Below are positions 17,047 through 32,846 of a stretch of 64,000 nt of DNA, one piece after another (position 1 is the first letter of the stretch; every line of letters starts with the position of its first letter). The translations under genes and the position numbers were made by a program. The notes beneath the pieces are model-generated. The model worked only from the letters and a program-made list of their open reading frames with translations, was not told where the DNA came from and searched no databases. The DNA lies in the NCBI GenBank assembly GCA_009712635.1, contig WASS01000026.1, positions 62,001 to 126,000 on the forward strand, given 5' to 3'. This DNA is from Hungatella sp. (lineage in GTDB: Bacteria; Bacillota; Clostridia; Lachnospirales; Lachnospiraceae).

Positions 17047-17511
17047 TTATTCTGCCATTTTATAAATATTAAACGGTTCGAAAAGAATTAAATAGTTGTC
17101 CTTTTGCAGTCCCTTCTCATATTTTGTACGATAGCATTCCAGTGCTTCCAACAGAAATTCTTCCGTAACCTCTAAATGTTCCGCTATCTCAAAGCTGTTT
17201 CTGCAGCCGGCTTCTTTCGCGGCAACCAGCTTCTCCAACGTGATCATTTTGTTATAAGCCCATAAACGTGCCGTGCGTTCCTGTTTCCTGTTTGAAACAT
17301 CAGACTGATCCAGTATATCTCCGGCAGTGGTGTAGTAATGTCCAAGTTCTTCAGCCAGTACGCAGGCTTTCTGACAGCCAGACATGTTCTGTCGGATAAG
17401 AATCTGATCGCCCCTGATCCGTCCGTCATTACCAATTAATGGTTTTTCTTTAATCATGATTCCTTCAGAGTCTGCTTCCTCTAATAATATGTCATAATTC
17501 AAATAAATCAC
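17047..17511 (-). CDS. ImmA/IrrE-type metallopeptidase, phage-switch protease
   Basis: Proteins of this family cleave the partner repressor to release lytic or tail genes after a stress signal. The expected HELGH zinc motif appears as EELGH (residues 54-58), with the first histidine replaced by glutamate. The flanking pattern VLAEELGHYYTT followed by NRKQERTARLWA is typical of the prophage subgroup. The C-terminal half looks like a small helical domain. The gene lies 18 bases downstream of the repressor on the same strand, as is usual for ImmR/ImmA pairs. Whether the variant motif is still active cannot be told. Confidence 0.8.
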   Translation of the reverse strand: MIYLNYDILLEEADSEGIMIKEKPLIGNDGRIRGDQILIRQNMSGCQKACVLAEELGHYYTTAGDILDQSDVSNRKQERTARLWAYNKMITLEKLVAAKEAGCRNSFEIAEHLEVTEEFLLEALECYRTKYEKGLQKDNYLILFEPFNIYKMAE

Positions 17512-17529
17512 CTCAACGAATTTTATTCC

Positions 17530-18012
17530 TTATTCATCGAAAAAGGCATCATCATGCTGTCTCATTTCCTCAGTCACTTCAATATCCGTCCGTTCATGTG
17601 CTGCTACCGGCTGTAAATAAGATCTGGAATCATGATGCAAAGGCCGGACAACCGGGTCTGCTTTAGTATATTGGGGGATGTGCACCATCTCACTGACCCG
17701 TTTTAGCGCCTCTTTTTGTCCGCTTTCATTAAGCTTTTGAAAATTACTGAGCATTTCTCTTGCTGACTCTCCGAAACAGCTGTTTTCATGATCCAGCGCA
17801 AAAACATCTGTTTCCTCCCAGCCCATGAGGGAAGCCGGAGTTGTTCTCAGTGCTTTTGCGATTGCAGTAATTTTAGACTGGGGAAGGCCTCTGCCGTCTA
17901 CCTCTATCTTATTGATGGAAGAACGGGATTTGTAACCCGCCTTATTCGCAAGCTCTTCCTGAGACATTCCCAGTTCCTCACGTCTTTGTTTTATGATCTG
18001 ACCGATATCCAT
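17530..18012 (-). CDS. XRE-family repressor of the tail module
   Basis: The N-terminal ~65 residues form a lambda-type helix-turn-helix (MSQEELANKAGYKSRSSINK). A linker and a C-terminal region of ~90 residues lack the Ser/Lys residues of a LexA-type self-cleavage domain, which fits repression relieved by the adjacent ImmA-type protease. The GGAGG ribosome binding site and a divergent TTGAAA/TATAAT promoter lie upstream. It is the natural candidate to bind the repeated GTAGAC-N5-GACTAC sites near the rightward promoter. Confidence 0.88.
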   Translation of the reverse strand: MDIGQIIKQRREELGMSQEELANKAGYKSRSSINKIEVDGRGLPQSKITAIAKALRTTPASLMGWEETDVFALDHENSCFGESAREMLSNFQKLNESGQKEALKRVSEMVHIPQYTKADPVVRPLHHDSRSYLQPVAAHERTDIEVTEEMRQHDDAFFDE

Positions 18013-18032
18013 AGGACCACCTCCATGACAGC

Positions 18033-18061
18033 ATTATAACACGGAGTAGAATTACTTTCAA
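18033..18061 (-). promoter_or_regulatory. leftward promoter of the repressor-ImmA pair
   Basis: On the minus strand TTGAAA (18056-18061) and TATAAT (18033-18038) have 17-base spacing, just ahead of the repressor ribosome binding site. Its -35 box lies about 18 bases from the -35 box of the rightward promoter, so a repressor bound between them could affect both. Confidence 0.8.
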
Positions 18062-18079
18062 CAAAAATTGAGAAACGTG

Positions 18080-18108
18080 TTGACAAAAAGGAAACGACGG
18101 AGTATGAT
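18080..18108 (+). promoter_or_regulatory. rightward promoter of the tail module
   Basis: TTGACA (18080-18085) and TATGAT (18103-18108) with a 17-base spacer form a near-consensus promoter. It is the only strong promoter seen ahead of the tail genes. A GTAGAC-N5-GACTAC palindrome covers the expected start of transcription. Confidence 0.85.
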
Positions 18109-18114
18109 GGTGGT

Positions 18115-18131
18115 GTAGACAAAAAGACTAC
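18115..18131 (+). promoter_or_regulatory. candidate operator O1 at the tail-module transcription start
   Basis: GTAGACAAAAAGACTAC is an imperfect inverted repeat (five of six positions pair in each arm) that lies right after the -10 box. A near-identical copy occurs 243 bases downstream. A weaker look-alike, GTTGACAAAAAGGAAAC, overlaps the -35 box. Recurrence of the same site beside a repressor gene supports an operator. Confidence 0.6.
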
Positions 18132-18147
18132 AAGAAAGGAGGAGGGC

Positions 18148-18399
18148 ATGACCAATACGGTTCGGTTAAATGAGTTAATCAAAAAATCCGGGCTGAAAAA
18201 GGGGTGGATTGCGGACAGACTTCACTTGTCCAGCTATGGGTTTCGGAGGAAACTGTGGAATAAGAGTCAGTTTAAGGCGGGTGAGATTAAAGTGCTGTGT
18301 GAGTTGCTTGGGATTGCATCGTTGGAAGAGATTAGTGATATTTTTTTTAATGATGGTGTAGACGAAAAGACTACAAAAATTCTGGTAGAAGGTAGGTGA
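18148..18399 (+). CDS. small phage-type helix-turn-helix protein (Cro/DUF739-like)
   Basis: This 83-residue protein reads as a compact helix-turn-helix (LNELIKKSGLKKGWIADRLHLS, shortened here, followed by FRRKLWNKSQFKAGEI). It resembles the small Cro-like regulators that open phage and tailocin operons. It is the first gene of the rightward transcript, with an AAAGGAGG ribosome binding site. It could down-regulate the divergent repressor or activate later genes; the sequence does not decide. A second copy of the operator lies within its 3' end. Confidence 0.7.
   Translation: MTNTVRLNELIKKSGLKKGWIADRLHLSSYGFRRKLWNKSQFKAGEIKVLCELLGIASLEEISDIFFNDGVDEKTTKILVEGR
18358..18374 (+). promoter_or_regulatory. 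candidate operator O2 inside the 3' end of the small HTH gene
   Basis: GTAGACGAAAAGACTAC differs from the promoter-proximal copy at one base of the spacer, and the flanks (GATGGT before, AA after) also match. Its place within the coding region suggests a roadblock or DNA-looping site. Confidence 0.5.
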
Positions 18400-18417
18400 A
18401 AGGGATGGAGGCAAGGA

Positions 18418-18831
18418 ATGTATAACAAAATAATGGAATCATTAATTAAGAAGTTGAGATTTATCTTTCCTGAAACAAAGATTCGTTTAGGATCTATTGA
18501 AGAAGAGGAGAAAGAATCCTTCTTAGTGGCCGGAATTTCACAGGTGTCGGAAAATTGTATAAACGGGAAGCGATACTGCTGTAGTATAAAAATATTTATT
18601 AATTATTATCCCAAGGAAGCAGATGAGCAATATGAGGACCGGTACCATGTATTAGAGTTGTTAATGAAACATTTGGAATCGATTTCTTTGGAAAATGGGG
18701 TAGTTATAGGAAGTAAAGACAGATCTGGATTAGTAGAAAACGGTAATCTGAAATTTCAAACGGAATATCAAATATTCTTTCTGAAAAATCAGGAGGAGGA
18801 AGTGTCTATGGAGGACATTAACTTAAAATGA
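18418..18831 (+). CDS. phage tail terminator-like protein (DUF6838-like)
   Basis: The 137-residue protein begins with an amphipathic helix and continues as a beta-rich chain (KRYCCSIKIFINYYP; YHVLELLMKHLE). This is the pattern of the small protein encoded just before the sheath in Firmicute contractile tails. The likely role is capping the tail tube and sheath at the head-distal or free end. The call rests mainly on position and general pattern. A GGAGGCAAGGA ribosome binding sequence is present. Confidence 0.55.
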   Translation: MYNKIMESLIKKLRFIFPETKIRLGSIEEEEKESFLVAGISQVSENCINGKRYCCSIKIFINYYPKEADEQYEDRYHVLELLMKHLESISLENGVVIGSKDRSGLVENGNLKFQTEYQIFFLKNQEEEVSMEDINLK

Positions 18832-18844
18832 AAGAGGTAAATTA

Positions 18845-19045
18845 ATGACTGGAAACAGTAGAAGAAAGGCTGCGGAAAAATCTGATGCAGCACGTTATAC
18901 AAAAAAACAGTTAATTTGTTCAGAAAAGTATTGCAGCCAAAGTGACTTGCTATGCGCATTGTTAGAGAACGGAAAAACTTATTCACTGGCAGAAACAGAT
19001 GAGATAATGAATCGATTTAAGAAAGGTAAGGTAAACGTATGTTAG
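18845..19045 (+). CDS. small conserved protein preceding the tail sheath gene
   Basis: This 66-residue protein contains YTKKQLICSEKYCSQSDLL and LLENGKTYSLAE segments. I recall short proteins with the same layout directly before sheath genes in clostridial tail modules; their role is unknown. It ends inside the sheath start region, overlapping by 7 bases, which implies translational coupling. It has an AAGAGGTAAATT leader and no signal or membrane segment. Confidence 0.65.
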   Translation: MTGNSRRKAAEKSDAARYTKKQLICSEKYCSQSDLLCALLENGKTYSLAETDEIMNRFKKGKVNVC

Positions 19046-20337
19046 GTGGAGGAAATTTTAAAACACAAAATAAGGTATTTCCCGGTGCATATATAAATTT
19101 TATTAATCGTGCCACGTCAGGGGTATCCTTTGGTGACAGAGGTGTTGCTGCAATTCCAATGAGTTTAAGCTGGGGGCCGGAAAAGGAGATTTTTGAAGTT
19201 ACCGATGAGGAATTCCAGTACAACTGTAAAGAAATTTTTGGTTATTCGGTTGAGGATGCAGCAATGCTGCCTGTAAGAGAATTATTCAAAAATTTGAAAA
19301 AGGGAATCTTCTATCGGTTAAATACCGGTGACCATGCATTCTGTGACTATGGAACAGCAAAGTATTCCGGAATCCGGGGAAACAATTTGATGGTAGTCAT
19401 CTCAAAAAATGTAGATGACAATTCAAAATATAATGTGAGCATCTTATTTGATGGGAAAGAAATAGATGTTCAGACTGTATCGAAAACAGCTGAACTTAAA
19501 GATAATAATTACGTAATTTTTAAGAAGGAAGCAACACTGGCAGAAACTGCAGGACTTCCATTTGCTGGAGGTACCGATGGGAACGAAATAACCGGCGAAG
19601 ATTATTCGGAATTTTTACATGCGGTAGAAAGCAGCTCTTACCAGATTCTATGCTGCCCCTCACAGGATGATAAGGTGAAAGCATTATTTGCGGCCTTTAC
19701 CAGAAGAATGAGGGATGATGTCGGAGTGAAATTCCAGACAGTTCTACATCAATATTCAAAAGCAGATCATGAAGGAATCATATCAGTGGAAAATGAAGCC
19801 AAAGAGCATACTCCAGGTCTGGTTTATTGGGTAACAGGCGCTGAAGCAGCCTGCGATATTAACAAAACAGTGGAAAACAAGAAGTATGACGGAGAATACA
19901 CTGTAAAAGTTCCTTATACCCAGCTGCAGCTTGCTGATGCAATGAAGGCCGGCAAGTTCCTTTTACATAAGGTTGGAAGTGAGATCAGGGTTCTTACAGA
20001 TATTAATACACTGGTAACCTATACAGATGAAAAAGGAGAAGATTTCTCTAATAACCAGACCATCCGTGTTCTGGATCAGATTGGTAATGATGTTGCGGAA
20101 CTTTTTTATTCTCGTTATCTTGGAAAGATGCCAAATGATAATGCAGGGAGAATCAGTCTGTGGAATGATATTGTAACTTACGGCAAACAACTGGCAGTTT
20201 TAAGAGCAATTGAAGACTTTGATGCAAAAGCGGTCACAGTGGATAAAGGGGAGGGGAAACGGTCTGTTTTAGTGAATTTCCCGGTTCAGCCTATTAACTG
20301 TATGAGTATTTTGTACATGACAGTCGTTGTTTCATAA
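19039..20337 (+). CDS. contractile tail sheath protein (XkdK-like)
   Basis: This protein polymerises around the tail tube and contracts to drive it into the target envelope. The N terminus FKTQNKVFPGAYINFIN and GVSFGDRGVAAIPMSLSWGP are the linker and first domain typical of PBSX-type sheaths. The C-terminal domain around RAIEDFDAKAVTV carries the conserved sheath core. At 432 residues it is full length. It begins inside the preceding small gene and is followed 17 bases later by the tube gene. Confidence 0.92.
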   Translation: MLGGGNFKTQNKVFPGAYINFINRATSGVSFGDRGVAAIPMSLSWGPEKEIFEVTDEEFQYNCKEIFGYSVEDAAMLPVRELFKNLKKGIFYRLNTGDHAFCDYGTAKYSGIRGNNLMVVISKNVDDNSKYNVSILFDGKEIDVQTVSKTAELKDNNYVIFKKEATLAETAGLPFAGGTDGNEITGEDYSEFLHAVESSSYQILCCPSQDDKVKALFAAFTRRMRDDVGVKFQTVLHQYSKADHEGIISVENEAKEHTPGLVYWVTGAEAACDINKTVENKKYDGEYTVKVPYTQLQLADAMKAGKFLLHKVGSEIRVLTDINTLVTYTDEKGEDFSNNQTIRVLDQIGNDVAELFYSRYLGKMPNDNAGRISLWNDIVTYGKQLAVLRAIEDFDAKAVTVDKGEGKRSVLVNFPVQPINCMSILYMTVVVS

Positions 20338-20354
20338 GAAAGGGGTAATGAATA

Positions 20355-20828
20355 ATGAGTAATATAACAATGAATGCGTGGGATGCAGTCAGCGCAGCAA
20401 AAGCAGAGTGCTTTATTACAATTGAAAATGAGCGTTTTAATTTTATGCAGGCTTTGAATCTGGAAGCAAAGATTGAAAAAGTGAAGTCTGAAATCCCGAT
20501 TCTTGGACGAGCTATGAAAGGGAATAAAACGGTTGGAATGAAGGGAACCGGTTCTGCAACATTTCACTATAACACAAGCATTTTCCGTGATATTTTATAT
20601 CGATACCAGCAGACTGGCAAGGATATCTACTTTGATATTCAGGTTACGAATGAAGATCCTGCTTCCAGTGTAGGAAGACAGACTGTCATTTTAAAGAATT
20701 GTAACTTAAACGGCGGAATTATTACCAAGTTTGATGCCTCAGGAGAATATTTAGAGGATGAATTTGAATTTACATTTGAAAGCTGGGAAATGCCAGAGCG
20801 TTTCGGAACAATTGCAGGAATGCAGTAA
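20355..20828 (+). CDS. tail tube protein (XkdM-like)
   Basis: Hexamers of this protein stack to form the inner tube. The 157 residues include the family segments NAWDAVSAAKAECFITIE, KMKGTGSATFHYN-like around residue 60 and DIYFDIQVTNED, and the chain ends in a beta-hairpin region DEFEFTFESWEMPE. The length and place directly after the sheath are those of PBSX XkdM. A strong ribosome binding site precedes the ATG. Confidence 0.92.
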   Translation: MSNITMNAWDAVSAAKAECFITIENERFNFMQALNLEAKIEKVKSEIPILGRAMKGNKTVGMKGTGSATFHYNTSIFRDILYRYQQTGKDIYFDIQVTNEDPASSVGRQTVILKNCNLNGGIITKFDASGEYLEDEFEFTFESWEMPERFGTIAGMQ

Positions 20829-20848
20829 ATACAAGGAGGGACATGAAA

Positions 20849-21277
20849 ATGGGAGATTTAAGTTGTTTTTTAAGTCAGAATGCTGTTAAAGCGGAGAATG
20901 AGAAATTTGTAGCTTCAAAACGTTTTATTGGTCAGAAAAATAAACCAGTTGAGTGGGAGATTAAAGCGATCACTTCAAAAGAAGATGAGGCGTTGAGAAA
21001 AGAGTGCACGAAACGGGTACAGGTGACTGGCAAAAAGGGGCAGTATACACAGGAGACTGACTATAATCTTTATCTTGGAAAACTGGCCGCAGAATGTACG
21101 GTGTATCCCAATTTGAATGATAAAGGTCTACAGGATTCCTACCAGGTTATGGGATCAGATGCTCTGTTAAAAGCAATGCTGACTGCTGGAGAATATGCCG
21201 GATATTTAGAGCGGATCCAGCAGGTAAATGGATTTGATACAACACTTGAAGAGCAGGTTGAAGAAGCAAAAAACTAA
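20849..21277 (+). CDS. tail assembly chaperone, short (G-like) product (XkdN-like)
   Basis: This protein is expected to hold the tape measure during tail assembly, like lambda gpG. It includes SKRFIGQKNKPVEWEIKAI and YNLYLGKLAAECTVYPN, segments typical of XkdN. I chose the ATG at 20849 because it lies 9 bases after AAGGAGG; an ATG at 20843 adds two residues. Its last codons are GCA AAA AAC TAA, which place a canonical A AAA AAC slippery heptamer immediately before the stop. Confidence 0.9.
   Translation: MGDLSCFLSQNAVKAENEKFVASKRFIGQKNKPVEWEIKAITSKEDEALRKECTKRVQVTGKKGQYTQETDYNLYLGKLAAECTVYPNLNDKGLQDSYQVMGSDALLKAMLTAGEYAGYLERIQQVNGFDTTLEEQVEEAKN
21268..21274 (+). promoter_or_regulatory. programmed -1 ribosomal frameshift site
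   Basis: The heptamer A AAA AAC is in the correct phase relative to the XkdN-like frame (GCA AAA AAC TAA). A -1 slip avoids the stop and continues through LIDGGD into the downstream small frame without any intervening stop. This matches the conserved G/GT frameshift of tailed-phage chaperone genes. No downstream hairpin was confirmed. Confidence 0.8.
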
Positions 21278-21291
21278 TAGATGGAGGCGAT

Positions 21292-21456
21292 ATGGAAGCT
21301 AACATTGCTTACTATTGTCTCCACAAGCTTCACAAATGGCCACATGAATTTTTAAGCCTTGACCGGTATGAGAAGGCGTTTATCATTGCAGCAGTGAATC
21401 TGAAACTGGAAAATGATAAAAAACAGGCTCAAAAAGCAAAGGCCAGGCACAGGTAA
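21292..21456 (+). CDS. T-like extension of the tail assembly chaperone
   Basis: The 54-residue frame encodes HKWPHEFLSLDRYEKAFIIA followed by a lysine-rich tail, a pattern found after XkdN-like genes in Firmicute tail modules. It lies in the -1 frame of the preceding gene and is reachable through the slippery site, giving a fused product of about 202 residues. A GGAGG at 21283-21287 before its ATG could also permit independent translation. It should bind the tape measure or tube protein during assembly. Confidence 0.75.
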   Translation: MEANIAYYCLHKLHKWPHEFLSLDRYEKAFIIAAVNLKLENDKKQAQKAKARHR

Positions 21457-21515: not shown

Positions 21516-23978
21516 GTGGCGACATTAGAAAACTCAATACAGCTTGTTGACGGTGCAACACCTGTACTGAAAAGAGTCAGTACTTCCATTAATATGACTG
21601 CCGGTCTTATGCGCAGCTTACAAATGGCATCATCAAATGCGCTGGCGTTACCTGGAATGCAAATGTGGGAATCTTCACTGGCTGGAATTCGCTTGCAGTA
21701 TGACAGGGTAGAAGAAACGGTGTATCAAGTGAAAGACCAGCAGGAAGAGTTAACTGATAGTACAAAAGAGAATGAGAAAGAAGTCGAAAAGCTAAAGAAA
21801 GCCTGGGAAAAAGTGGTTTCTGTCACAAAGAAAATGGGTATTAAGACAGGTGCCATGGATATTTTCAATCAGGCAAACGACATGAAAGCCGCAGGTAATG
21901 TCATACAGACAAGAACCGGTATGCAAGGACCAGATCTTAGTGCAGCGCAAAAAAGTGCTTCTAATCTCTATATTGATAATTTAAGTCCCAGTCTCAGCTC
22001 GGCAGCACAAAGCCTTTCTGCAGTTAATCAGCTTACTGGACAAACGGGAAGCGGATTAGAGCAGATAACCCGTGCCGGGCTGCTGATGCAGGATACCTTT
22101 GGATATGGACTGACAGATAGTATAAAGTCCGCAGGTATGTTGGAACAGCAGTTTGGTATATCTGGTGCTGAAGCATTTGATTTGATTATTCAGGGAACAC
22201 AGGCAGGTCTTAATAAGAATGGAGATTTACTGGCAACAATTAATCAGTATTCATCCAGATTTAAAAGCCTGGGCCTTGGTGGAGGCGAAATGTTTCAGGC
22301 TTTCATTAATGGTGCTGAAAATGGAGGAGTTTCAATAGCTTCCCTTGGTACAGCGGTTAGCGAATTCTCAAAACGTGCAGTCAGTGGTGGTAAAGATTCC
22401 AGCCAGGGATTTGCTGCTTTAGGACTTGATGCAAATAAAATGACGGAAGCATTTAAAGGTGGTGGAGAGACCGCAAAGCAAGCTTTTATGCAGACAATGG
22501 ATGCCTTAAACAATATGGAAGACCCGGTAAGTAAAAATCTGGCAGGAGTTAAGCTGTTTGGTGATGCATGGGCAAATATTGGAAGTGACGGTGTAATGGC
22601 ATTGTCTGACCTAAGTGGATCCGTTGAATTGACAAAAGATCATCTGGAGGAACTAGACAGTATAAAGTATAACGATGCAGCAAGTGCTCTCAGTTCACTG
22701 GCAAAGACAATTAATATTGGATTAGCAGGACCAATTGGCGGGATAGTAGACTTTGTTACAAAAAGTATTCAGGATTTTACATCAGGATTGCAGGGAGATG
22801 TTGAAAATATCAGTGGGATTTTTGGTGTAATTGGACTGGCAGCGGGAACTATTGGTAATTTTATTGCTGAGTCATGGTCGGTTCTCCAACCTGTTATCCT
22901 GGGGATTGTTGCTGCCTTAATTGTTTACAATGCAGTTTTGGGAGCTGGTTGGCTGGTAATGGCTGCTAATGCGGCTCAAACAGCCTTGAGTACGGTTTGC
23001 GGTTGGGCCAATGTTGTAGCTACAACAGCACAAAAGATTGCAGTTGAAGGTCTAAATGCAGCACTGGGAGCTTCTCCTCTGACTTGGTTCCTGATTCTGC
23101 TTATTGCGATTATTGCTCTTTTTTATGCAGGAGTAGCGGCTATTAATCATTTTGCCGGAACATCCTATAGTGCTACAGGAATAATTTGCGGTGTATTCGC
23201 AGCGGCATTAGCTTTTATCGGTAATATTCTGATGGCAATGGGAGAAATGGTTATTGGAGTAGTTGAATTTATGTTGAATCCTTTTATTTTCTTGGCTAAT
23301 TTTATAGCAAATATGTTCCGTGATCCTCTTGCTTCGGCAGTGTATCTATTTGCAGATTTTGGAGATCAAATTTTGGGCCTGATTCAGAAGGTAGCAAAAG
23401 CTCTGGATCTGGTTACTGGTTCTAATTTTGAAGCAACAGTATCAGTCTGGAGAGAAGACATTTATGGTTTTTATGATAGATTTGCTAAGAAACATGGAAA
23501 TGGGACTTACGAAGAAAAGTTTAAACCATTGGATTTAGATAAGATGATGTCTGAAGCGGGATATAAACTGGATCGTTTTAATTATGGTGATTCTTATAAA
23601 AATGGTAATAATTTTGGTACGGGTATAGAAAATGGAGTTAAAAATAAATATGAGGATATTAAAACGCTTGTTAAGCAGCATGATCCTGTAGAAAACACAC
23701 AGGTACCCAATGAAGATATTATAAAAAACACAGGTAATACTGCGGTGAGTACAGCAGCTATGGCAGATTCCATGGATATCGTAGATGAGGAATTAAAGTA
23801 CATGCGGGATGCAGCTGAGCAGGAAATTATTAACCGGTTTACACTGGCGGAATTGAAGGTGGATGTTAATAATAATAACACCATAAAGACTGTTACGGAC
23901 ATTGATAACGTAGCTCGAATGCTTAGTGATGTTACTACAGAAATGCTGGTTTCTTCCGCAGAAGGGACGGTATATTAA
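21516..23978 (+). CDS. tail tape measure protein
   Basis: This long protein of 820 residues sets tail length. It has a charged coiled-coil start (~50-110), a central region rich in small residues, several hydrophobic helices (~440-620) typical of tape measures, and an acidic C terminus. The GTG start at 21516 follows AAAGGAGGT. By the rule of roughly 0.15 nm per residue known for lambda-type tails, a tail near 120 nm is expected; this is an estimate. It directly follows the chaperone pair, as in all such modules. Confidence 0.92.
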   Translation: MATLENSIQLVDGATPVLKRVSTSINMTAGLMRSLQMASSNALALPGMQMWESSLAGIRLQYDRVEETVYQVKDQQEELTDSTKENEKEVEKLKKAWEKVVSVTKKMGIKTGAMDIFNQANDMKAAGNVIQTRTGMQGPDLSAAQKSASNLYIDNLSPSLSSAAQSLSAVNQLTGQTGSGLEQITRAGLLMQDTFGYGLTDSIKSAGMLEQQFGISGAEAFDLIIQGTQAGLNKNGDLLATINQYSSRFKSLGLGGGEMFQAFINGAENGGVSIASLGTAVSEFSKRAVSGGKDSSQGFAALGLDANKMTEAFKGGGETAKQAFMQTMDALNNMEDPVSKNLAGVKLFGDAWANIGSDGVMALSDLSGSVELTKDHLEELDSIKYNDAASALSSLAKTINIGLAGPIGGIVDFVTKSIQDFTSGLQGDVENISGIFGVIGLAAGTIGNFIAESWSVLQPVILGIVAALIVYNAVLGAGWLVMAANAAQTALSTVCGWANVVATTAQKIAVEGLNAALGASPLTWFLILLIAIIALFYAGVAAINHFAGTSYSATGIICGVFAAALAFIGNILMAMGEMVIGVVEFMLNPFIFLANFIANMFRDPLASAVYLFADFGDQILGLIQKVAKALDLVTGSNFEATVSVWREDIYGFYDRFAKKHGNGTYEEKFKPLDLDKMMSEAGYKLDRFNYGDSYKNGNNFGTGIENGVKNKYEDIKTLVKQHDPVENTQVPNEDIIKNTGNTAVSTAAMADSMDIVDEELKYMRDAAEQEIINRFTLAELKVDVNNNNTIKTVTDIDNVARMLSDVTTEMLVSSAEGTVY

Positions 23979-25615: not shown

Positions 25616-25922
25616 CGTTGAATGGATAGAGAACATAAAAAGAATTGTAATGCAGGCTGTAGAGGCTGGTGATCCTTGTGATGTTATAACTGCTTCTGTG
25701 CTTAACACGGATCCATTAGAAATCCGGATAGATCAGAAAACCATATTAACAAAAACCCAGATTATATTACCAGAACAGTTTACAGACCATTTAAGTGTAA
25801 TGGAAATACCAGGTTTGGGAGAAATGACAGTGACTGTAAAGGCAGGTCTGAAAAATGAAGACAGGATTCTTCTCATTCAAAAACGGGGAGGACAACAATA
25901 CGTAGTCGCAGGCAGATGGTAA
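25608..25922 (+). CDS. DUF2577 baseplate protein (XkdR-like)
   Basis: This is a 104-residue protein with the pattern DPLEIRIDQKTILTKTQIILPE, a small OB-fold-like chain typical of DUF2577, thought to contribute to the spike/hub. It starts with TTG and overlaps the end of the hub gene by 8 bases, implying coupled translation. It ends GGQQYVVAGRW, as members of this family often do. Confidence 0.88.
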   Translation: MADVEWIENIKRIVMQAVEAGDPCDVITASVLNTDPLEIRIDQKTILTKTQIILPEQFTDHLSVMEIPGLGEMTVTVKAGLKNEDRILLIQKRGGQQYVVAGRW

Positions 25923-25934: not shown

Positions 25935-26336
25935 ATGCTCCCAGTAACAGGTAATATTTTGGAACAGGACTTTAAAGTAATTGAGCAGCCATCTAAAACC
26001 TTCCGTCTTGTTATGGACAGGGGTCGTATTATGGGAATGACAGATGGTTTAGAGGCAATTCGACAGTCTGTTTACTGCATTTTAAATACGGAGCGTTTTG
26101 ACTGGCTAATTTATAGCTGGAATTATGGAGTGGAATTAAACAGGCTTTATGGAAGGCCGTTAGGGCTGGTTAAAGCTAAAGTGAAAAAAAGAATCATGGA
26201 AGCCCTAAAGCAAGACGACCGAATCAATGAGGTGGATAATTTCTCTTTTAAAGAGAAGGGTACTTCACTATATGTAACATTTACCGTCCATACTCCAGTG
26301 GGAGAAATTAATGCTGAAAAGGAGGTGAATTTTTAA
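25935..26336 (+). CDS. DUF2634 baseplate wedge protein (XkdS/gp25-like)
   Basis: The 133-residue protein includes GLEAIRQSVYCILNTERFDWLIYSWNYG (partly quoted), the hallmark of the gp25/XkdS wedge family that initiates sheath polymerisation. An AAAGGAGG ribosome binding site precedes the ATG. It is immediately followed by the baseplate J gene, as in other contractile tails. Confidence 0.9.
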   Translation: MLPVTGNILEQDFKVIEQPSKTFRLVMDRGRIMGMTDGLEAIRQSVYCILNTERFDWLIYSWNYGVELNRLYGRPLGLVKAKVKKRIMEALKQDDRINEVDNFSFKEKGTSLYVTFTVHTPVGEINAEKEVNF

Positions 26337-27392
26337 GTGTATGAAAGTGTTTCGTATGAGAACATATTAAAGCGTATGTTAAATAAAGTATCATCTGACT
26401 TAGATAAAAGAGAAGGTTCTGTAATTTATACAGCGCTGGCTCCAGCTGCTGCAGAGCTTGCTATTATGTACATAGAGATCGACCAGGTTTTAAAAGAGAT
26501 TTTTGCTGATACTGCTGACAGAGAATTTTTAATACGTAGAGCAGCTGAGCGCGGAATTATTCCAAAGGCAGCTTCTTATGCAGAGCTAAAGGCACGATTT
26601 AATATGGAAATTCCAATAGGAAGTCGTTTTTCCCAAAACTTAATTAATTACAAGGCTATAGAAAAATTAGGTGACTTTGAATACCGGATGCGGTGTGAAA
26701 CAATTGGTACTTCAGGAAATGCAAATTTAGGCAGATTGATCCCCATTGAATATATAAAAGGCTTAACATTTGCTGAACTTACAGAACTTTTAGTACCAGG
26801 AGAAGAGGAAGAGGAAACAGAACGGTTTCGTAAACGATATTTTGACAGTTTGAAATCTCAGGCGTACGGTGGAAATATTGCAGATTATAAAGAGAAAGTT
26901 TCAGCAATTTCAGGAGTAGGTGGGGTAAAGGTGTTTCCTGCCTGGAATGGTGGCGGAACGGTGAAACTGGTCATTGTTGATTCCTCTTTTTACGCTCCCA
27001 GTCTGGATTTAATTGAACGTGTGCAGGAACAGATTGATCCAATTACAGATCAGGGGAAAGGCTATGGAATTGCCCCTATTGGTCATAAAGTTTCTGTTGC
27101 AGGCGCCCAGGCAGAGGTAGTATCAATTACTGCAAAAATCACATATCAGACAGGATATGACTACAGTAAATGTAAAGATTTTATTGAAAAGACTATGGAC
27201 GAATATTTCGAAGAATTGAATCATTCGTGGCAAGAGTTAAATAACATTATTGTCAGGATTTCCAGAATTGAAAGCAGATTGCTGGATGTGGAAGGGGTTC
27301 TTGATGTCATGGATACAAAGATCAATGGAGTTAATGGTAATTATGTAATTCCCTCTGAGAAGATAGCACTACGAGGTGATGTCGATGCTTAA
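26337..27392 (+). CDS. baseplate J-like protein (XkdT)
   Basis: This 351-residue wedge protein belongs to the baseplate J/gp47 family. It shows the N-terminal helix with DLDKREGSVIYTALAPAAAE and the central AYGGNIADYKEKVSAISGVGGVKVFP region (partly quoted). It starts with GTG directly after the previous stop (TAAGTG), with AAAAGGAGGTG just upstream. It is full length, and its end overlaps the next gene. Confidence 0.92.
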   Translation: MYESVSYENILKRMLNKVSSDLDKREGSVIYTALAPAAAELAIMYIEIDQVLKEIFADTADREFLIRRAAERGIIPKAASYAELKARFNMEIPIGSRFSQNLINYKAIEKLGDFEYRMRCETIGTSGNANLGRLIPIEYIKGLTFAELTELLVPGEEEEETERFRKRYFDSLKSQAYGGNIADYKEKVSAISGVGGVKVFPAWNGGGTVKLVIVDSSFYAPSLDLIERVQEQIDPITDQGKGYGIAPIGHKVSVAGAQAEVVSITAKITYQTGYDYSKCKDFIEKTMDEYFEELNHSWQELNNIIVRISRIESRLLDVEGVLDVMDTKINGVNGNYVIPSEKIALRGDVDA

Positions 27393-28302
27393 TCAAAGAG
27401 AAATAGAATTAATATCATATTTACCAGATTATTTAAGAGGAATCCGAGAGTTTAATGAGATAGGCGGAGCTGAAGAAAATGAGTTGAGGCAGCTGTATTC
27501 AAACATTGGAATCCTATGGAATAACAGTTTTATAGTATCCTCGGATTATCAGGGAATAAAGAAATGGGAGTCATTGTTAGGAATCAAAGGGGATGCGTCA
27601 CTTTCTCTTGAAGAAAGAAGAAACATTGTATTAGCAAACTGGAATTATCAGCTCCCCTATACCCAAAGAAAGTTAATGGAGCAGTTAACACCCCTTCTTG
27701 GTGACAGCTATGAAATCTACGTGGATAGTCTTAAAAGCAATTTAAAAATTGTAGTAAAAGAGTATTCTCTGGTCATTGTGGAAAGCATTCGGGATATGGT
27801 AGGAAGAATAATACCAGCAAATCTGGAAGCAGAATATTGCAGTAAATACCAGGGAAATTATCATGCAAACAGTTCTTTCTTTAACAGCATAACTATTCGT
27901 ACTGTTTATTTTCCTCGATATAATCTGGCGCATTTGAATCTGGATCGTAATTGGATTTTGAATGGGGACAATAAATTAAACGGATACAATGATGAAAGTC
28001 CCATTGACTTTTATCCTGTGGGAACCAGGGTTTGTGCAGAAATACAGCATCCCTATAAACGGGAAGAGCAGTTGCGTATATCGGTTGGCGTACCAAGGCA
28101 GTTGTTTTCAGATAATGAAATAATTGTAGTACAAACAGAATTAAAAAATGATTCTAAAATAAAAGAAATAATGAGTTATAGTTTCAATGCAATGGAATAT
28201 ATGACGGTAGGTCCTGTCTGCATTACAAACAGGAATGTGTTGGATAATGAATGGGCATTGGACGGTAATCGTAACTTAAATGGCGGTTTAACTATTTTAT
28301 AG
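27385..28302 (+). CDS. DUF2313-type tail protein (XkdU-like)
   Basis: This protein of about 305 residues follows the J-like gene, as XkdU/gpI does, and carries LISYLPDYLRGIREFNEI at its N terminus. The second half (~170-300) contains repeated NRNW-LNGDN-LNG motifs (LDRNWILNGDNKLNGY and NEWALDGNRNLNGG), probably fibre-attachment hairpins. I placed the start at the ATG at 27385, which has GAGGTG at good spacing; a GTG at 27376 is possible. It links wedge and fibre. Confidence 0.82.
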   Translation: MLNQREIELISYLPDYLRGIREFNEIGGAEENELRQLYSNIGILWNNSFIVSSDYQGIKKWESLLGIKGDASLSLEERRNIVLANWNYQLPYTQRKLMEQLTPLLGDSYEIYVDSLKSNLKIVVKEYSLVIVESIRDMVGRIIPANLEAEYCSKYQGNYHANSSFFNSITIRTVYFPRYNLAHLNLDRNWILNGDNKLNGYNDESPIDFYPVGTRVCAEIQHPYKREEQLRISVGVPRQLFSDNEIIVVQTELKNDSKIKEIMSYSFNAMEYMTVGPVCITNRNVLDNEWALDGNRNLNGGLTIL

Positions 28303-28316: not shown

Positions 28317-28712
28317 ATGGCAGACATTACAAATGGAGTTATTACAGTAACAGGGAGAAAGAAATTTTGCAAAGCTCATGCAGGAGATATGGCTCTTCCC
28401 ATTATTACTCATATGGCGTGGGGAGACGGGGGCGTAAATGAAGAGGGGAAGCCAAAGGCGGCTTCTGGAGGTGAAGTTGCTCTTTATCATGAACTTTTAA
28501 AAAAGAAAGTAGAGGCTCACACTTATGTTAACAATGAGGAGACTGCATGCCGTTACACGGCCACATTGGAAAAAGGAGAATTAACTGGAAGTGAAATATC
28601 CGAAATGGGATTGTTTGATGCAGAAGGAGATTTGATTGCATATCGAACCTTTATGCGAAAAGGGAAAGATGCAGATATTCCTCAGATCTATGATATGGAT
28701 GAAATTTTTTAA
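28317..28712 (+). CDS. tail fibre/collar adaptor protein
   Basis: This 131-residue protein has HMAWGDGGV followed by a proline- and alanine-rich stretch and TGSEISEMGLFDAEGDLIAYRTF, a pattern shared with the N-terminal attachment domains of tail fibre proteins (DUF3751-like). Here it is encoded as a separate small protein, so it probably acts as an adaptor between the baseplate and the receptor-binding protein. A good ribosome binding site is present. Confidence 0.75.
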   Translation: MADITNGVITVTGRKKFCKAHAGDMALPIITHMAWGDGGVNEEGKPKAASGGEVALYHELLKKKVEAHTYVNNEETACRYTATLEKGELTGSEISEMGLFDAEGDLIAYRTFMRKGKDADIPQIYDMDEIF

Positions 28713-28724
28713 GGAGGTTTAACA

Positions 28725-29159
28725 ATGGCATTTTGTGATGTAAAGAATCCGCCGGTATATACGGCAGAAATTCGTAAATGGGATAGAGATACACTGGCAG
28801 ATGGCCAGGAAATGGCGGTTGAGATTGAACAGCTTTTTAATAATACTTTTTATAATAAGATGGTTCAGGAGCAGCATGAGAGACCAGTGGAGATTATTCT
28901 CCCTGCCTCTGGCTGGAGCAGTTTCGCACCCTACAGTCAAAAAGTTATGGTAACAGGTGTTAAAGCGTCGGATAATCCGATACTAAGTCCTTGCACTCCC
29001 AAAACCCTTAACCCGGAAATAACTAAGCTTAGACGCAAACTAACAGCCATGATAACAGATGGAGAAACAGAAGATAATTATGTAACATTTTATTGCTGTG
29101 AAAAAAAACCTACAGAAGATTTTTCTGTAATTTTGAGGGGAGTGAGTACAAATGGGTAA
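28725..29159 (+). CDS. tail fibre-associated protein with a fibre-type beta domain
   Basis: The 144-residue protein contains ILPASGWSSFAPYSQKVMVTGV, a segment common in Firmicute tail-fibre C-terminal domains. The N-terminal part, ending near residue 50 in NNTFYNKMVQEQHER, is helical. It overlaps the receptor-binding gene by 8 bases. It could be a fibre shaft or a structural partner of the glycine-rich protein. Precise role unknown. Confidence 0.65.
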   Translation: MAFCDVKNPPVYTAEIRKWDRDTLADGQEMAVEIEQLFNNTFYNKMVQEQHERPVEIILPASGWSSFAPYSQKVMVTGVKASDNPILSPCTPKTLNPEITKLRRKLTAMITDGETEDNYVTFYCCEKKPTEDFSVILRGVSTNG

Positions 29160-30675
29160 AGTAATTATGCCGGTAGGCAGCGGGGCAGGCAGTGGATCAG
29201 ATGAATGTAGTTCAACAAGAGCAGAGGTTTTGAAGGGGTATACTGCTATTACCTCTGATTCGGATGATGAATCTTTGGAAGGAACCTTAGAATTGACGGG
29301 AGATGCTTCAGATAGTCAGGTTCTAGCAGGAAAAACTTATTATAATACAAACCCGAAAAATAAAAGAGTGGGGAGCATGGTAAATCAGGGGGCAGTCAGT
29401 CAGACGATTAATGCAGGAGAAAGTTATACAATTCCTTCTGGTTATCATAATGGTACAGGAAAGATTGTTGCTTCTAGTCTAGTAAATCAAACTGAAGGCA
29501 CTGCTACGGCAACTCAGATTTTAAATGGCCAGACAGCATGGGTAAATGGAAATAAAATTGTAGGTTCTATGGCGATACAAAGCATTCTGTCTTTTAATGC
29601 TGCCGTGTACTCGTCCACGGCTGTTATGTTTAAGTGGAAGAATCCTGAAAAAGGACCATTTTCAGGGGTAATCATTGTAGGGAAAAAAGACTCATATCCG
29701 ACGAGTGTAAAAGATGGCTATATTTATTATAAAGGATATGGAAACAATGCAAATGCTTCAGCTGAGTCATCTATCTTGATATCAAATTTTGAAGGAGGTA
29801 TCAATTATTATTTCCGAATTTATACATATGTTGTTAAAGAGAATAATGAGTGGATATCTACAACAAGCCTTATATCAACTGCATCTACTTTAAAAGGTCA
29901 ACAAACATTCACTTATTCTGGAACATTTACAGTTCCGGCAAGCGTTCGAAGTATTGATGGATTTTGTGTTGGTGGAGGTGGGAGTGGAGGCACTGGTGGC
30001 GGATTTGTTAACACACCAGTAGCCATTCAAGTTGGCGGTGGTGGTGGTGGCGGATTTGCGAAGACATTTAAAGGATTATCAGTAACTCCAGGAGAAATTT
30101 TATCTATCAATATTGGTGCAGGTGGAAATTCGGTAGGGGGATATAAAATAGAAGATTTATATAAGGATGGAAACAGTGGAGGAGAATCAAATATTAAAAG
30201 GGGAAATGCTACATTGGTTTCTGCATTAGGAGGAAATGGCGGTAGAAATGGTGGTTGGAATCCTTATGGTGGAAGCGGTGGTTCAGGAGGAGGTGGAGGA
30301 CTTGATCTGAATACTAAAAGTTCCTATAAAGGAGGAAATGGAGGTTCAAATGGAGGTAATGGAGAGAACGGGTTAGCAAATTATAGAAGTGATGCAACGG
30401 ATGCCACTGGTGGAAAAGGACAAGGAGTCACGACTAAAGCTTTCAATGAATCAGCAGCGACTGTTTATTCAGGAGGAGGAGGTGGTGGTTCCTATGGGAA
30501 TTTTATATCTACAGGAGGAACTGGTGGAGGAGGGGCCGGAGCAAAGGCTTATAACAATAATTTGACAATTGCAGAATCTGGAAAGGCAAATACTGGAGGT
30601 GGTGGAGGCGGTACTTTATATGGTCCATCAGGAAGTGGTGGTTCCGGTATTGTTATTATTAGATGGGGATATTAA
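29152..30675 (+). CDS. glycine-rich receptor-binding tail protein
   Basis: This 507-residue protein probably decides which cells the tail binds. Residues 1-~165 carry fibre-type repeats (GKTYYNTNP, LNGQTAWVNGNKIVGSM). Residues ~170-265 look like a fibronectin-type beta domain. The C-terminal ~240 residues are a glycine-rich sandwich with many GGGGG and GGSGG runs, and the chain ends GSGGSGIVIIRWGY. Such an ending is familiar from polyglycine adhesin domains of the phage S16 gp38 kind. No signal peptide is present, as expected for a particle component. Confidence 0.8.
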   Translation: MGKVIMPVGSGAGSGSDECSSTRAEVLKGYTAITSDSDDESLEGTLELTGDASDSQVLAGKTYYNTNPKNKRVGSMVNQGAVSQTINAGESYTIPSGYHNGTGKIVASSLVNQTEGTATATQILNGQTAWVNGNKIVGSMAIQSILSFNAAVYSSTAVMFKWKNPEKGPFSGVIIVGKKDSYPTSVKDGYIYYKGYGNNANASAESSILISNFEGGINYYFRIYTYVVKENNEWISTTSLISTASTLKGQQTFTYSGTFTVPASVRSIDGFCVGGGGSGGTGGGFVNTPVAIQVGGGGGGGFAKTFKGLSVTPGEILSINIGAGGNSVGGYKIEDLYKDGNSGGESNIKRGNATLVSALGGNGGRNGGWNPYGGSGGSGGGGGLDLNTKSSYKGGNGGSNGGNGENGLANYRSDATDATGGKGQGVTTKAFNESAATVYSGGGGGGSYGNFISTGGTGGGGAGAKAYNNNLTIAESGKANTGGGGGGTLYGPSGSGGSGIVIIRWGY

Positions 30676-30692
30676 TTAAGGAGGATTATGAA

Positions 30693-31040
30693 ATGATTGT
30701 TCATCAGGTATTTGCGCAGATATATGAAGGAGAAATAAAAAATATTATAGTGTGCGATAATTATGAATTAGCAAATTGGCTTACGCGTTCTTCATATGGT
30801 AATGAATCATTAGCCATTGATTGTCTTCATTATCCATGTACAGTAGGAGACAAATATCGTGAAAATAGGTTTTATCGTGTACAGGAAGATGGGAAAGAAG
30901 TTGAGCTTTTAGCGTTGCCAAGTGAGGAGCAGGAAATTCAGAACATTAAAAAAAGCAATATTGAATTATATGAATATCAGATTGAATTAGATTATCTAAT
31001 TTCATGCAGAGATTTAGCTATTAATGGAGGAGAACTATGA
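30693..31040 (+). CDS. small protein after the receptor-binding gene, unknown function
   Basis: The protein of 115 residues begins MIVHQVFAQIYEG and has CDNYELANWLTRSSYGNES and a GDKYRENRFYRV segment, which I recall from small proteins downstream of Firmicute tail fibres. The C terminus is a charged helix. The ATG at 30693 is preferred because AAGGAGG (30678-30684) lies 8 bases upstream. A chaperone or attachment role for the fibre is possible but not shown. Confidence 0.65.
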   Translation: MIVHQVFAQIYEGEIKNIIVCDNYELANWLTRSSYGNESLAIDCLHYPCTVGDKYRENRFYRVQEDGKEVELLALPSEEQEIQNIKKSNIELYEYQIELDYLISCRDLAINGGEL

Positions 31041-31204
31041 CGTATTCAATAATAAAAAAGGTGATTGATAATAATAAAAATATAATGGTAGAAGAAGAAT
31101 GGAAAAGATTTGTACAAGATATAACAAAAAAGTTAGATATATTTCTTCTTAACAGTAGAATTACAGAAGAGCAGTACAATGAACTATTAAAAATTTTATA
31201 TTAA
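31037..31204 (+). CDS. very small tail-module protein (weakly XkdX-like)
   Basis: This 55-residue frame overlaps the previous stop (ATGA) and carries GGAGGAGAAC as a ribosome binding site. It is lysine- and isoleucine-rich and ends in RITEEQYNELLKILY; the ITEEQY pattern is reminiscent of XkdX proteins. The coding case rests on overlap, ribosome binding site and position. Confidence 0.5.
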   Translation: MTYSIIKKVIDNNKNIMVEEEWKRFVQDITKKLDIFLLNSRITEEQYNELLKILY

Positions 31205-31265
31205 ACTATTTAAAAATTGATTTTGAGAAGTACTAAAAAAATTAGAATGTGAGAGGAATAAATAA

Positions 31266-31694
31266 ATGGAAAAAATATTAGAACTGTTTTATTTGGCATG
31301 GAATAGTTCAATTATTAAACTGGTTATATTAGCAGTTGTTATGGATACATGCTTTGGTTGCATCCGGGCTATAAAAGAACACGAATTTAATAGTTGCTTC
31401 GGTATAGATGGAGCAATTCGAAAAATCTCAATGTTAGCTTCTTTGGCGTTTTTATTGGTTCTAGACAAAATTGTTCATCTAAATTTAATAGGCTTTATTC
31501 CAGACACGATAAGAACTGTTTTTCCTGTTGATACGATAGGGGTAGCTGAATTTTTCGGTTTATTATATATCGCATATGAATTGGTTAGTATACTTAAAAA
31601 CATGTCTTTATGTGGTTTGCCGGTAAAACATCTTTGGAAGACAATTAAAAAATTTCTGTTACAGTACACAGACGAACTTCCTGATCGCACATAA
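31266..31694 (+). CDS. phage holin (TcdE/Phage_holin_4 type)
   Basis: The 142-residue protein has three hydrophobic helices (about residues 15-30, 50-68, 85-110). It carries the family segments MDTCFGCIRAIKE and GIDGAIRKISML and a charged C-terminal tail. It should form lesions in the producing cell's membrane so that the lysin can reach the wall and release the tails. It lies before the amidase gene, as lysis cassettes usually do. Confidence 0.88.
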   Translation: MEKILELFYLAWNSSIIKLVILAVVMDTCFGCIRAIKEHEFNSCFGIDGAIRKISMLASLAFLLVLDKIVHLNLIGFIPDTIRTVFPVDTIGVAEFFGLLYIAYELVSILKNMSLCGLPVKHLWKTIKKFLLQYTDELPDRT

Positions 31695-31823
31695 ATAGTG
31701 ACATATATCGACAGAAAACCTTAGTGAAATATTACTAAATTTATATTTCTTACTTTGACTTAAGTACCGAACTTTTATTTTCCTTTCTTCATATGATAAA
31801 TAGAAAGGGACAAGGTGATATCT

Positions 31824-31979
31824 ATGGTAAAAAGCGAATCAACCAAAGACATGAGCAACATTGAACTACTTGGAATACAGGAAAATCTAAAAAATTCCGA
31901 TCATACAGAAATTGAACGTTTCCGGGAATCCTTTGATGCAGATGACATGGGATTCTCGGGAAGAAGGGAGGGGATTTAA
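31824..31979 (+). CDS. small acidic protein of the lysis cassette, unknown function
   Basis: This 51-residue frame follows an AAGGTGATATCT leader and ends on the base before the amidase GTG start. The product is hydrophilic and acidic (NIELLGIQENLKNSD; ESFDADDMGFSG) with no membrane segment. It could be a co-translational leader for the lysin. It is not recognised. Confidence 0.5.
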   Translation: MVKSESTKDMSNIELLGIQENLKNSDHTEIERFRESFDADDMGFSGRREGI

Positions 31980-32810
31980 GTGGAAATAAACAAACTTCTA
32001 ACCCCATATAACTACAGCAACGGCGAGTTAAACCGTATTAAATATATCGTCATTCATTATGTAGGAGCGCTGGGAGGGGCAGAAGCAAACTGCAAATACT
32101 ATGCCTCCCAGTACGTAGGCGCCAGCGCCCACTACTTTGTAGGCTTTTCCGGAGAAATCTGGCAGTCCGTTGAAGACAAAAACATCGCATGGCATTGCGG
32201 AGCCAAGACCTATATTCATCCGGAATGCCGCAACAGCAACAGCATTGGTATCGAGCTGTGTGTCAGAAACAAAGGCAGCCAGTCTGACACAAGCAGAGAC
32301 TGGTATTTTGAAGACGCAACCGTCGCTTCAGCAAAGAAACTGACTAAGCAGCTAATGGAACAATACGGAATCAGAGAAGATCACGTAATCCGTCATTACG
32401 ATGTGACCGGTAAAATCTGCCCAAATCCTTATGTATACAACAACACCATTCACACCTGGGAAGATTTTAAAGATTCTCTTTTATCCGCAGCAGAAGTAAA
32501 ATCCGGCTGGGTGGAAGATGAAAACGGATGGAGATTTTATTTAGGGAATACAGGAGATTATGTGAAAAATGACTGGTATCAGGATGGAGATACCTGGTAC
32601 TGGTTTGATGAAGCCGGATATATGGTGAAAGATACCTGGAAAACCGGAAGTGACGGAAAGTGGTATTATTTAGACAGTGCCGGTAAAATGGCAAAAGACC
32701 AGTGGATAATCTGGAAAAATGAACTTTACCGCCTGACAGCTGACGGCAGTATGTATGAGGGTGAGCTTCACTTAAAGTCAGACCAAAACGGCGCGCTTCA
32801 AATCCAATAA
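31980..32810 (+). CDS. N-acetylmuramoyl-L-alanine amidase with wall-binding repeats (endolysin)
   Basis: The protein has 276 residues. The first ~155 form an Amidase_2 zinc domain (VIHYVGALGG near residue 20, AHYFVG, and RHYDVTGKICPNP near residue 137). Three or more choline-binding-type repeats follow (GWVEDENGWRFYLG; DGDTWYWFDEAGYM; DGKWYYLDSAGKM). It should cleave the stem peptide from glycan at lysis. The GTG start at 31980 has GGGAGGGG just upstream. Position after the holin supports a role in particle release. Confidence 0.92.
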   Translation: MEINKLLTPYNYSNGELNRIKYIVIHYVGALGGAEANCKYYASQYVGASAHYFVGFSGEIWQSVEDKNIAWHCGAKTYIHPECRNSNSIGIELCVRNKGSQSDTSRDWYFEDATVASAKKLTKQLMEQYGIREDHVIRHYDVTGKICPNPYVYNNTIHTWEDFKDSLLSAAEVKSGWVEDENGWRFYLGNTGDYVKNDWYQDGDTWYWFDEAGYMVKDTWKTGSDGKWYYLDSAGKMAKDQWIIWKNELYRLTADGSMYEGELHLKSDQNGALQIQ

Positions 32811-32815
32811 GAACC

Positions 32816-32846
32816 TGGCGGGATTCAGTGAAATGAGATCCCGCCA
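32816..32846. repeat. 9-bp perfect inverted repeat after the amidase gene
   Basis: TGGCGGGAT (32816-32824) pairs exactly with ATCCCGCCA (32838-32846). No T-run follows on the + strand, so it is either a weak terminator of the tail transcript or a boundary palindrome. Confidence 0.6.

Follow-up and report, generated by a model that had tools for sequence, protein, structure and literature searches.

Does a set of contractile-tail genes with no head genes beside it represent a killing particle kept by its host, or only what a decaying prophage has left behind? The question was raised by a locus at positions 17047-32810 of a 64,000-nt stretch of bacterial DNA (the window), flanked by holA and rpsT and lying on contig C10 of a 5.63-Mb genome. 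Sheath matches placed its closest kin in Lacrimispora, with 95% identity to L. xylanisolvens ASCUSBR21, 80% to L. amygdalina and mostly 73-75% to the rest, which identifies the host as Lacrimispora, a gut-type bacterium of the family Lachnospiraceae. Both L. amygdalina and [Clostridium] aerotolerans DSM 5434, which are culturable, carry the tail. With a probability of roughly 0.86, the locus can be read as a domesticated, headless R-type tailocin whose phiC2/PBSX-like tail is carried on a reusable chassis, and the particle would very likely kill rival strains. The chassis consists of a CI/ImmA/Cro switch with an operator-like pair on the left and a lysin on the right.

Gene families were assigned by Pfam and phrog profile matches; the features of the locus, with E values in brackets, were as follows.

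17047..17511, minus strand: ImmA-like metalloprotease, Peptidase_M78 (Pfam 1.9e-9, phrog_87 7.9e-35)
17530..18012, minus strand: CI/Xre-type repressor (HTH_3 3.3e-13)
18033..18061, minus strand: divergent promoter-like site before CI, TTGAAA-17-TATAAT with TG before the -10 (11/12 consensus)
18080..18108, plus strand: main operon promoter, TTGACA-17-TATGAT (11/12 consensus)
18114..18132, plus strand: operator-like site O1, a 19-bp dyad, TGTAGACNNNNNGACTACA, directly behind the main promoter -10
18148..18399, plus strand: Cro-like small HTH protein (phrog_3 2.6e-5)
18357..18375, plus strand: operator-like site O2, 19-bp dyad TGTAGACNNNNNGACTACA at the 3' end of cro, at the left border of the module
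18418..18831, plus strand: tail terminator, the first structural gene (PF20765, tail terminator 8, 4.2e-12)
18845..19045, plus strand: small conserved tail protein (phrog_966 3e-17)
19039..20337, plus strand: tail sheath, 432 aa (PF04984 5.3e-27; phrog_279 7e-123)
20355..20828, plus strand: tail tube (DUF2001 7.9e-48; PBSX XkdM structure 3.6e-24)
20843..21277, plus strand: XkdN-like tail assembly chaperone (PF08890 3.9e-49)
21268..21456, plus strand: -1 frameshift site A_AAA_AAC and C-terminal extension of the chaperone
21516..23978, plus strand: tape measure, 820 aa (PF10145 6.7e-17; phrog_1068 1.4e-94)
23978..24646, plus strand: XkdP-like LysM tail protein (LysM 9.9e-13; phrog_380 4.6e-63)
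24659..25615, plus strand: YqbQ/XkdQ-like baseplate hub (PF24032 8.6e-102)
25608..25922, plus strand: XkdR-like DUF2577 protein (PF10844 4.5e-18), presumably a spike/hub part
25935..26336, plus strand: gp25-like sheath initiator (PF10934 8e-31)
26337..27392, plus strand: baseplate J wedge (PF04865 3.6e-54; diffocin TRI-2 CD1371 7e-24)
27376..28302, plus strand: Mu gp48-like baseplate protein (PF10076 1.5e-18)
28317..28712, plus strand: tail-collar fibre adaptor (PF12571 1.9e-5; phrog_1780 1.7e-21)
28725..29159, plus strand: conserved fibre-cassette protein, 144 aa (no family above cut-off)
29152..30675, plus strand: receptor-binding protein (RBP) with conserved N part, FN3-like part and Gly-rich C domain (PF21722 2.8e-18)
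30663..31040, plus strand: small protein after the RBP, in fibre-chaperone position (no family)
31266..31694, plus strand: holin (PF05105, holin 4_1, 1.1e-20)
31824..31979, plus strand: conserved 51-aa ORF of the lysis anchor (motif search)
31980..32810, plus strand: lysin, an amidase with choline-binding repeats (Amidase_2 2.8e-30)

The locus comprised 22 open reading frames (ORFs) with zero internal stops and 95% coding sequence. A sequence-only reading of this DNA had named its components and their order, from the repressor/protease switch to the amidase, and all were recovered by family matches. The single strand assigned to them held for the structural, fibre and lysis genes (20 ORFs on the plus strand, from cro onward), while ImmA and CI run divergently on the minus strand; the start at 17047 was right, and the end at 32846 had to be moved to the lysin stop at 32810. 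The Lachnospiraceae-like host that it proposed was narrowed to Lacrimispora. The chaperone pair was real in sequence: the slip at 21268 leads to a predicted 204-aa -1 product ending at 21456, and the heptamer and an open -1 frame were found likewise in the four sisters compared for it.

The locus was compared across 25 Lacrimispora genomes, labelled G000 (the genome of the window) onward. Both holA and rpsT were found in all 25 (in G024 holA is broken, in G014 only a piece of it was found), and the interval between them kept chassis parts (switch and/or lysin) in every genome. The tail of the window (type R) occupied the site in 16 (G000, 001, 002, 004, 008, 010, 011, 012, 016, 017, 018, 019, 020, 022, 023 and 024). 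Its genes are under purifying selection, with dN/dS of 0.03-0.10 for the sheath, 0-0.03 for the tube and for the chaperone, 0.03-0.10 for the hub, 0.04-0.27 for J, 0.12-0.28 for the tape measure and, from two pairs only, 0.27 and 0.44 for the RBP, compared with 0.02-0.09 for holA (up to eight tail pairs with defined dS, a few with dS >2; G024 left out of distances). Switch, lysin and sheath have descended largely along the core tree, which was built from holA and rpsT only (G014 by rpsT alone). Pearson correlations of distances with those of holA reached 0.90 for CI, 0.94 for ImmA, 0.87 for the lysin and 0.90 for the sheath, and were weaker for J (0.48) and the 144-aa protein (0.50). The R sheaths of 15 site loci (G016 omitted for a split match) formed one clade apart from two head-bearing prophage sheaths (100/100), and the inner order of this clade largely followed the core tree.

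These data bear on the reading of the locus as a decaying prophage remnant that keeps tail genes by chance and without function. Head and integration genes are indeed gone, 3 of the 25 genomes carry no tail at the site, and the tandem copy in G019 is broken; the remnant is nevertheless very improbable, as 22/22 ORFs are intact, dN/dS is low, the same cassette recurs in 16/25 genomes with a sheath tree largely along the core tree, and the operator-like sites are conserved. As the sequence-only reading had argued, the absence of any broken gene favours the domesticated particle over the truncated prophage, and purifying selection argues the same way. On disruption in sister strains, which if frequent it would have counted against itself, the comparison showed 16 genomes that keep the tail, the broken second copy of G019, the three tail-less genomes, and frame breaks in the tail loci of G016 and G024. 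Those of G024 point to an assembly error because holA is broken there too. The best match per gene was kept, so that split matches gave low coverage in G024, G016 and the second copy of G019; the loci of G016 and G014 were split across contigs.

No terminase, portal, capsid or integrase family occurred among the scanned ORFs of the locus (profile scans and ORF accounting), as had been claimed. The closest annotated phages by sheath were phiCDKH02 (52.1%) and phiC2 (51.6%). Upstream of its tail, phiC2 encodes terminase, portal, head protease, scaffold, capsid and adaptors, and ten phiC2 head, packaging and connector queries (tblastn) had no match in the window. The only upstream query matching sister site loci (8 loci) was ORF12, in tail-terminator position; the tail terminator of the window, unlike its eight sister counterparts, stayed below a match to ORF12 at E 1e-3. 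The same tail type was found elsewhere in G005 and G013 (sheath 70% and 68%) with portal, head protease and adaptors, and these prophages are its relatives among complete phages. Because only ORF12 of the upstream queries matched at the site, and because head genes accompany the tail in these two prophages, the domesticated locus begins with the tail terminator, whose product closes a tail.

A tail without heads could also serve as a helper, supplying tails to the heads of another phage so that complete virions form in trans. The retained tail terminator, through which a tail joins its head, would suit this role, as would the one SPP1-type portal (C7, position 165749) and the one HK97-type capsid (C30, position 85008) of the genome, which come from other elements; the two were observed to belong to two different prophage-like elements. 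Against it, the locus had no match to a phiC2 head-tail adaptor, and the genome contained one sheath of this family (PF04984) and no second by PF04984 or P2-type query. The portal of the sister prophages was full-length in 4 of the 25 genomes (G005, G009, G013 and G014) and absent in this form from the other 21, the window's genome giving only a partial 26% match, to the C7 portal. The terminase family searched in that genome, PF04466 (PBSX-type), was absent. Helper function is thus hardly credible, and the head genes elsewhere that the sequence-only reading had named as its possible undoing did not, for the families searched, add up to a complementing phage. Equally hard to credit is an eCIS-like contractile injection system delivering effectors to other cells instead of acting as a bacteriocin, which would share the contractile, headless build and the fixed site, since no ATPase or effector-like family was found among the scanned genes, fibre and lysis genes are of phage type, and the fibre cassette is common to a head-bearing Lacrimispora prophage.

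As far as sequence can tell, the locus has what characterizes an R-type tailocin: contractile tail genes that are intact and under selection, lysis and regulator genes, and no head, packaging, replication or integration genes.

Conservation of this tail without head genes in relatives had been proposed as a check, and it held for the 16 genomes above; another 6 (G007, 009, 013, 014, 015 and 021) carried an unrelated contractile tail at the same site, and 3 (G003, 005 and 006) carried none. The locus is thereby a shared chassis for different particles, a result that goes beyond the sequence-only reading, as do the operator-like pair, the divergent promoters and the 51-aa ORF. The other tail, annotated on G007, was P2/R-pyocin-like (hereafter P2), with a PF04985 tube, gpU, a gpV-like spike, a phrog_23 sheath and gp25-, J- and I-like baseplate proteins; it was recognized by gene-by-gene matches in G009 and G015 and by the sheath and a few genes in G013, G014 and G021. 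The sole solved relative of its sheath was R-pyocin PA0622, and the nearest phage record was Faecalibacterium phage FP_Epona (46%). Tail-less loci kept the order cro, holin (PF05105 1.6e-34), 51-aa ORF region and lysin in G003, and CI, holin and lysin in G006; ImmA was present in sister loci, these two included, whereas in G005 CI and ImmA were reduced to fragments. CI, ImmA and lysin of G003 (L099) and G006 (L097) had dN/dS of 0.03-0.16. The lysin was 73-99% identical in all 24 other genomes. Between lysin and rpsT, the G006 locus (L097 524-11061) contained about 10.5 kb of sugar-uptake and glycosidase genes, and holA-rpsT spans were enlarged to 28-49 kb in G008, G009, G017, G019 and G020.

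The modules share their borders. The window and the P2-type genomes G007, G013, G015 and G021 were 94.7-96.6% identical over ~15610-18376 and 31780-33300. Between these borders, blastn matches (1e-5) were limited to a diverged fibre stretch from 28276 to ~29500 (75-76%), the holin (73-75%), 178 bp at 30629 in G015 and a pair of short segments in the operator region. Homology stopped on the left at 18375-18378 against the four P2-type sisters and tail-less G003, and on the right at ~31780, before the lysin; G003 shared both borders (18378 and 31787, at 89% and 92% identity). Insertion at an att site was considered and rejected: no repeat common to the left and right ends was seen by eye in alignments of 8 left and 7 right loci, a comparison that was not a systematic repeat search.

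The left border coincides with O2. The operator pattern matched the window three times at <=3 mismatches, against 0.04 expected, the third match (3 mismatches) lying at 41100. Across the 25 genomes it had 44 exact matches, 43 of them within the holA-rpsT locus by coordinate comparison and the other on another contig of G018, while a reversed control pattern had 2; G005 gave no match. These 19-bp sites are putative CI operators. The main operon promoter was present in 17 of 19 oriented loci, G009 and G005 being the exceptions. The scan that gave the two promoter sites listed above yielded 54 sites overall, versus 50 in shuffles.

Such a locus could work as follows. Bound to O1 (and O2), CI would keep the strong rightward promoter shut until, on DNA damage, ImmA removes CI. 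The operon would then make sheath, tube, baseplate and fibre proteins around the 820-residue tape measure, and the tail terminator would cap the tube, so that a head is not needed. Holin and lysin would burst the producer cell, and the released particles would bind relatives through the variable fibre, contract through the envelope and kill by depolarisation.

Some loci hold more than one unit. Two IMG/VR contigs (L231 and L232) carried the switch edge, a P2 tail and then a window-type tail in tandem, with an operator pair (<=2 mismatches) ahead of each tail, and in L053 a cro fragment preceded the second tail. G019 had two copies of the window-type tail, each with ImmA and CI, and G008 had two cro-operator units 4.4 kb apart. 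Recombination between repeated units could add or remove cargo. Tentatively, and short of an even chance, the site might be an 'operator-tagged weapon array'. Every cargo (phiC2-like tail, P2-like tail, CHAP lytic enzyme) would then have, or once have had, a pair of operators of its own at its head, accompanied by cro or not; a single CI/ImmA pair would keep all cargoes silent; and whole weapons would be inserted, stacked or precisely removed by recombination between the repeated units. If so, sister lineages would retain contractile machines of different kinds behind a single switch and a single lysis gene, and the tail-less switch-plus-lysis loci of G003 and G006 would be unloaded chassis. 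An 854-aa protein with CHAP and peptidoglycan-binding repeats was observed between the two units of G008 (L290 1854-4418), a possible third cargo.

Both tail modules look old in the genus, because the R sheath largely follows the core tree and the P2 genes show genus-deep divergence; individual lineages appear to have retained either of the two, both or none. The dS of P2 genes was ~1.6-4.3 between G007 and G009 (holA 1.76), near or past saturation, and 0.02-0.28 within the G007 group (holA 0.12-0.18). Recent import of the P2 module was disfavoured by this genus-deep dS comparable to that of holA, and the data are explained no less well by a tandem in the ancestor followed by reciprocal loss, or by alternative alleles that have long persisted.

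Several points weigh against the tailocin reading and its genus-wide extension. SOS induction, CI binding, assembly, lysis and killing are inferred from the genes. The absence of head genes depends on single-sequence tblastn with phiC2 proteins, ORF accounting and family scans, and the phiC2 capsid query tests nothing, as it found no match even in head-bearing loci. Fitting the R, P2 and tail-less states to the core tree took 7 changes (bootstraps gave 5-7 for the R label), a count that is soft, since 19 of 200 label shuffles were as low and the interleaving of states was only modestly unlike shuffled labels. Likeness to diffocin, the headless R-type particle of C. difficile, was low (sheath E 5.5e-11, 45 bits; tube 3e-4), prophage sheath DSY3957 (1.4e-86) and PBSX XkdM (3.6e-24) matching far better, and the sheath of the window has the extra domains of phage sheaths.

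In other genera the site can be found apparently empty. Among 57 other-genus genomes with a match, 29 rpsT loci with 1.5-kb flanks were read: holA faced rpsT at 85-285 bp (between matches) in 11, which is taken as the empty site, lay on the other side in 2 and was out of reach in 16. Five of those 16, read wider, showed gaps of 1.6, 2.5, 3.0 and 4.2 kb and one locus without holA in 19 kb, and no query gene beyond holA and rpsT matched in them at 1e-4. The chassis probably predates the diversification of the genus, because its parts lie between holA and rpsT in 25/25 genomes. Sheaths at E<=1e-90 (43-57% identical) were found in 12 of 298 other-genus Lachnospiraceae genomes sampled, 9 of these loci having head or connector genes and one (G194) being truncated where its contig ends. 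This tail type may have been domesticated without a head on more than one occasion in the family. Two loci at other sites, in G057 and G168 (L157 and L161, two other Lachnospiraceae genera), were apparently headless, with an HTH and ImmA-type pair nearby and host-like genes beyond; L161 adjoins metG- and tatD-like genes. All these genes of the two loci were named by reading sequences.

At the level of single genes, the RBP was variable, several sisters aligning over the first 28% only; its fn3 match was weak (0.022), and its AF2 model (mean pLDDT 50 from 10 rows) was not used for fold search. Neither the hub nor the RBP had a relative in a sequence search of the PDB, and the 144-aa protein (AF2 pLDDT 73.5) had no PDB match at E<=0.001. 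A motif search recovered the 51-aa ORF, which has no Pfam match, from 7 of the 19 oriented loci, and this ORF was nearly invariant across tail-bearing, P2-type and tail-less loci. PADLOC on six proteins gave no match, nor did Rfam in window positions 14000-36000 and in three P2-type loci.

The P2-type tape-measure gene was split by a conserved structured element of ~317 nt (L095 6308-6624), located between ...MALA and GWKTEDM..., also found in 12 further P2-type loci and not in L188. Of its 97 predicted pairs, 12 had both partners changed among 7 sequences, and it showed a U at the exon end, a GGUC/GGCC guide-like stretch and a G at the element end, which we take to fit the hallmarks of a group I intron; Rfam 15 gave no match at E<=1. 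Its 3' part recurred in a further phage tape measure (L273, L281) and, with frames read by eye, in a terminase-like gene at the Walker A position (L274 and L280, with shorter pieces in L282). Many Lacrimispora genomes carried further contractile tails (L020-L024 and L028-L031 are examples), one kind having a 445-aa-class sheath (33-35% identity). Another kind, with a 350-aa sheath of diffocin-like length, occurred in G009, G014 and G015, with a full-length portal within ~6 kb in G009 and G014.

Compared with known systems, tail gene order and families were like those of the complete Clostridioides myophages phiCDKH02 and phiC2 (sheath 52% identical) and of the Lacrimispora prophages in G005 and G013 (68-70%). 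Head-side genes were present in phiC2 and in these two prophages, whereas the window's locus starts at the tail terminator. The likeness of the G013 prophage extends to the fibre cassette (collar 82%, 144-aa protein 78%, RBP 54% over 64%). R-pyocin/P2-type tails are kin of the alternative sheath in six sister genomes, not of the window. PBSX, diffocins and monocins had been offered as parallels; diffocin is the fair comparator, the other two poor ones. PBSX makes heads filled with packaged host DNA, so that this locus without head genes falls outside that group, and monocins are non-contractile. Diffocin has a PBSX-like tail, and kinship with the locus can be detected for its sheath, tube and wedge (CD1363, CD1364 and CD1371). 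By sequence, the locus falls outside the diffocin family proper, because its nearest relatives are Lacrimispora prophages and phiC2-type phages. The diffocin sheath has a short two-domain form (PMC6088184).

No report on this Lacrimispora / Clostridium saccharolyticum tail locus was found in the literature searched, which did not extend to subscription papers and preprints. Gram-negative bacteria provide many well-documented headless R-type tailocins, whereas a review of solvent clostridia holds that capsid genes are highly conserved in Gram-positive tailocin prophages, diffocin being the one headless case that is widely recognised (PMC10538166). The solvent-clostridia tailocin prophages described there have capsid modules and an integrase or resolvase; contractile R-type cassettes are, on that account, common in clostridia, whereas the locus of the window shows no capsid genes. 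The genomes compared here, from across one Gram-positive genus, have a fixed headless weapon locus at which unrelated contractile machines alternate or stack behind one switch.

The nearest analogue is the Pseudomonas mutS-cinA/recA hotspot, where different R- and F-tailocins occur with PrtR and lysis genes (PMC7815802). Like holA-rpsT, it is one fixed site with regulator and lysis genes and several tail types, singly or in tandem; it differs in being Gram-negative with PrtR-type regulation, and no homology of the loci is claimed. In the same study, a mutant without particles that kept the lytic genes of the cluster still lysed with mitomycin C (PMC7815802), a precedent for the tail-less Lacrimispora loci. 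With its fixed site, shared regulators and lysis genes and different tails, the holA-rpsT locus is, by analogy, the Gram-positive equivalent of the tailocin hotspots of Pseudomonas. It provides a natural experiment on the exchange of entire killing machines among anaerobes that can be cultured, and its 19-bp site makes regulation directly testable.

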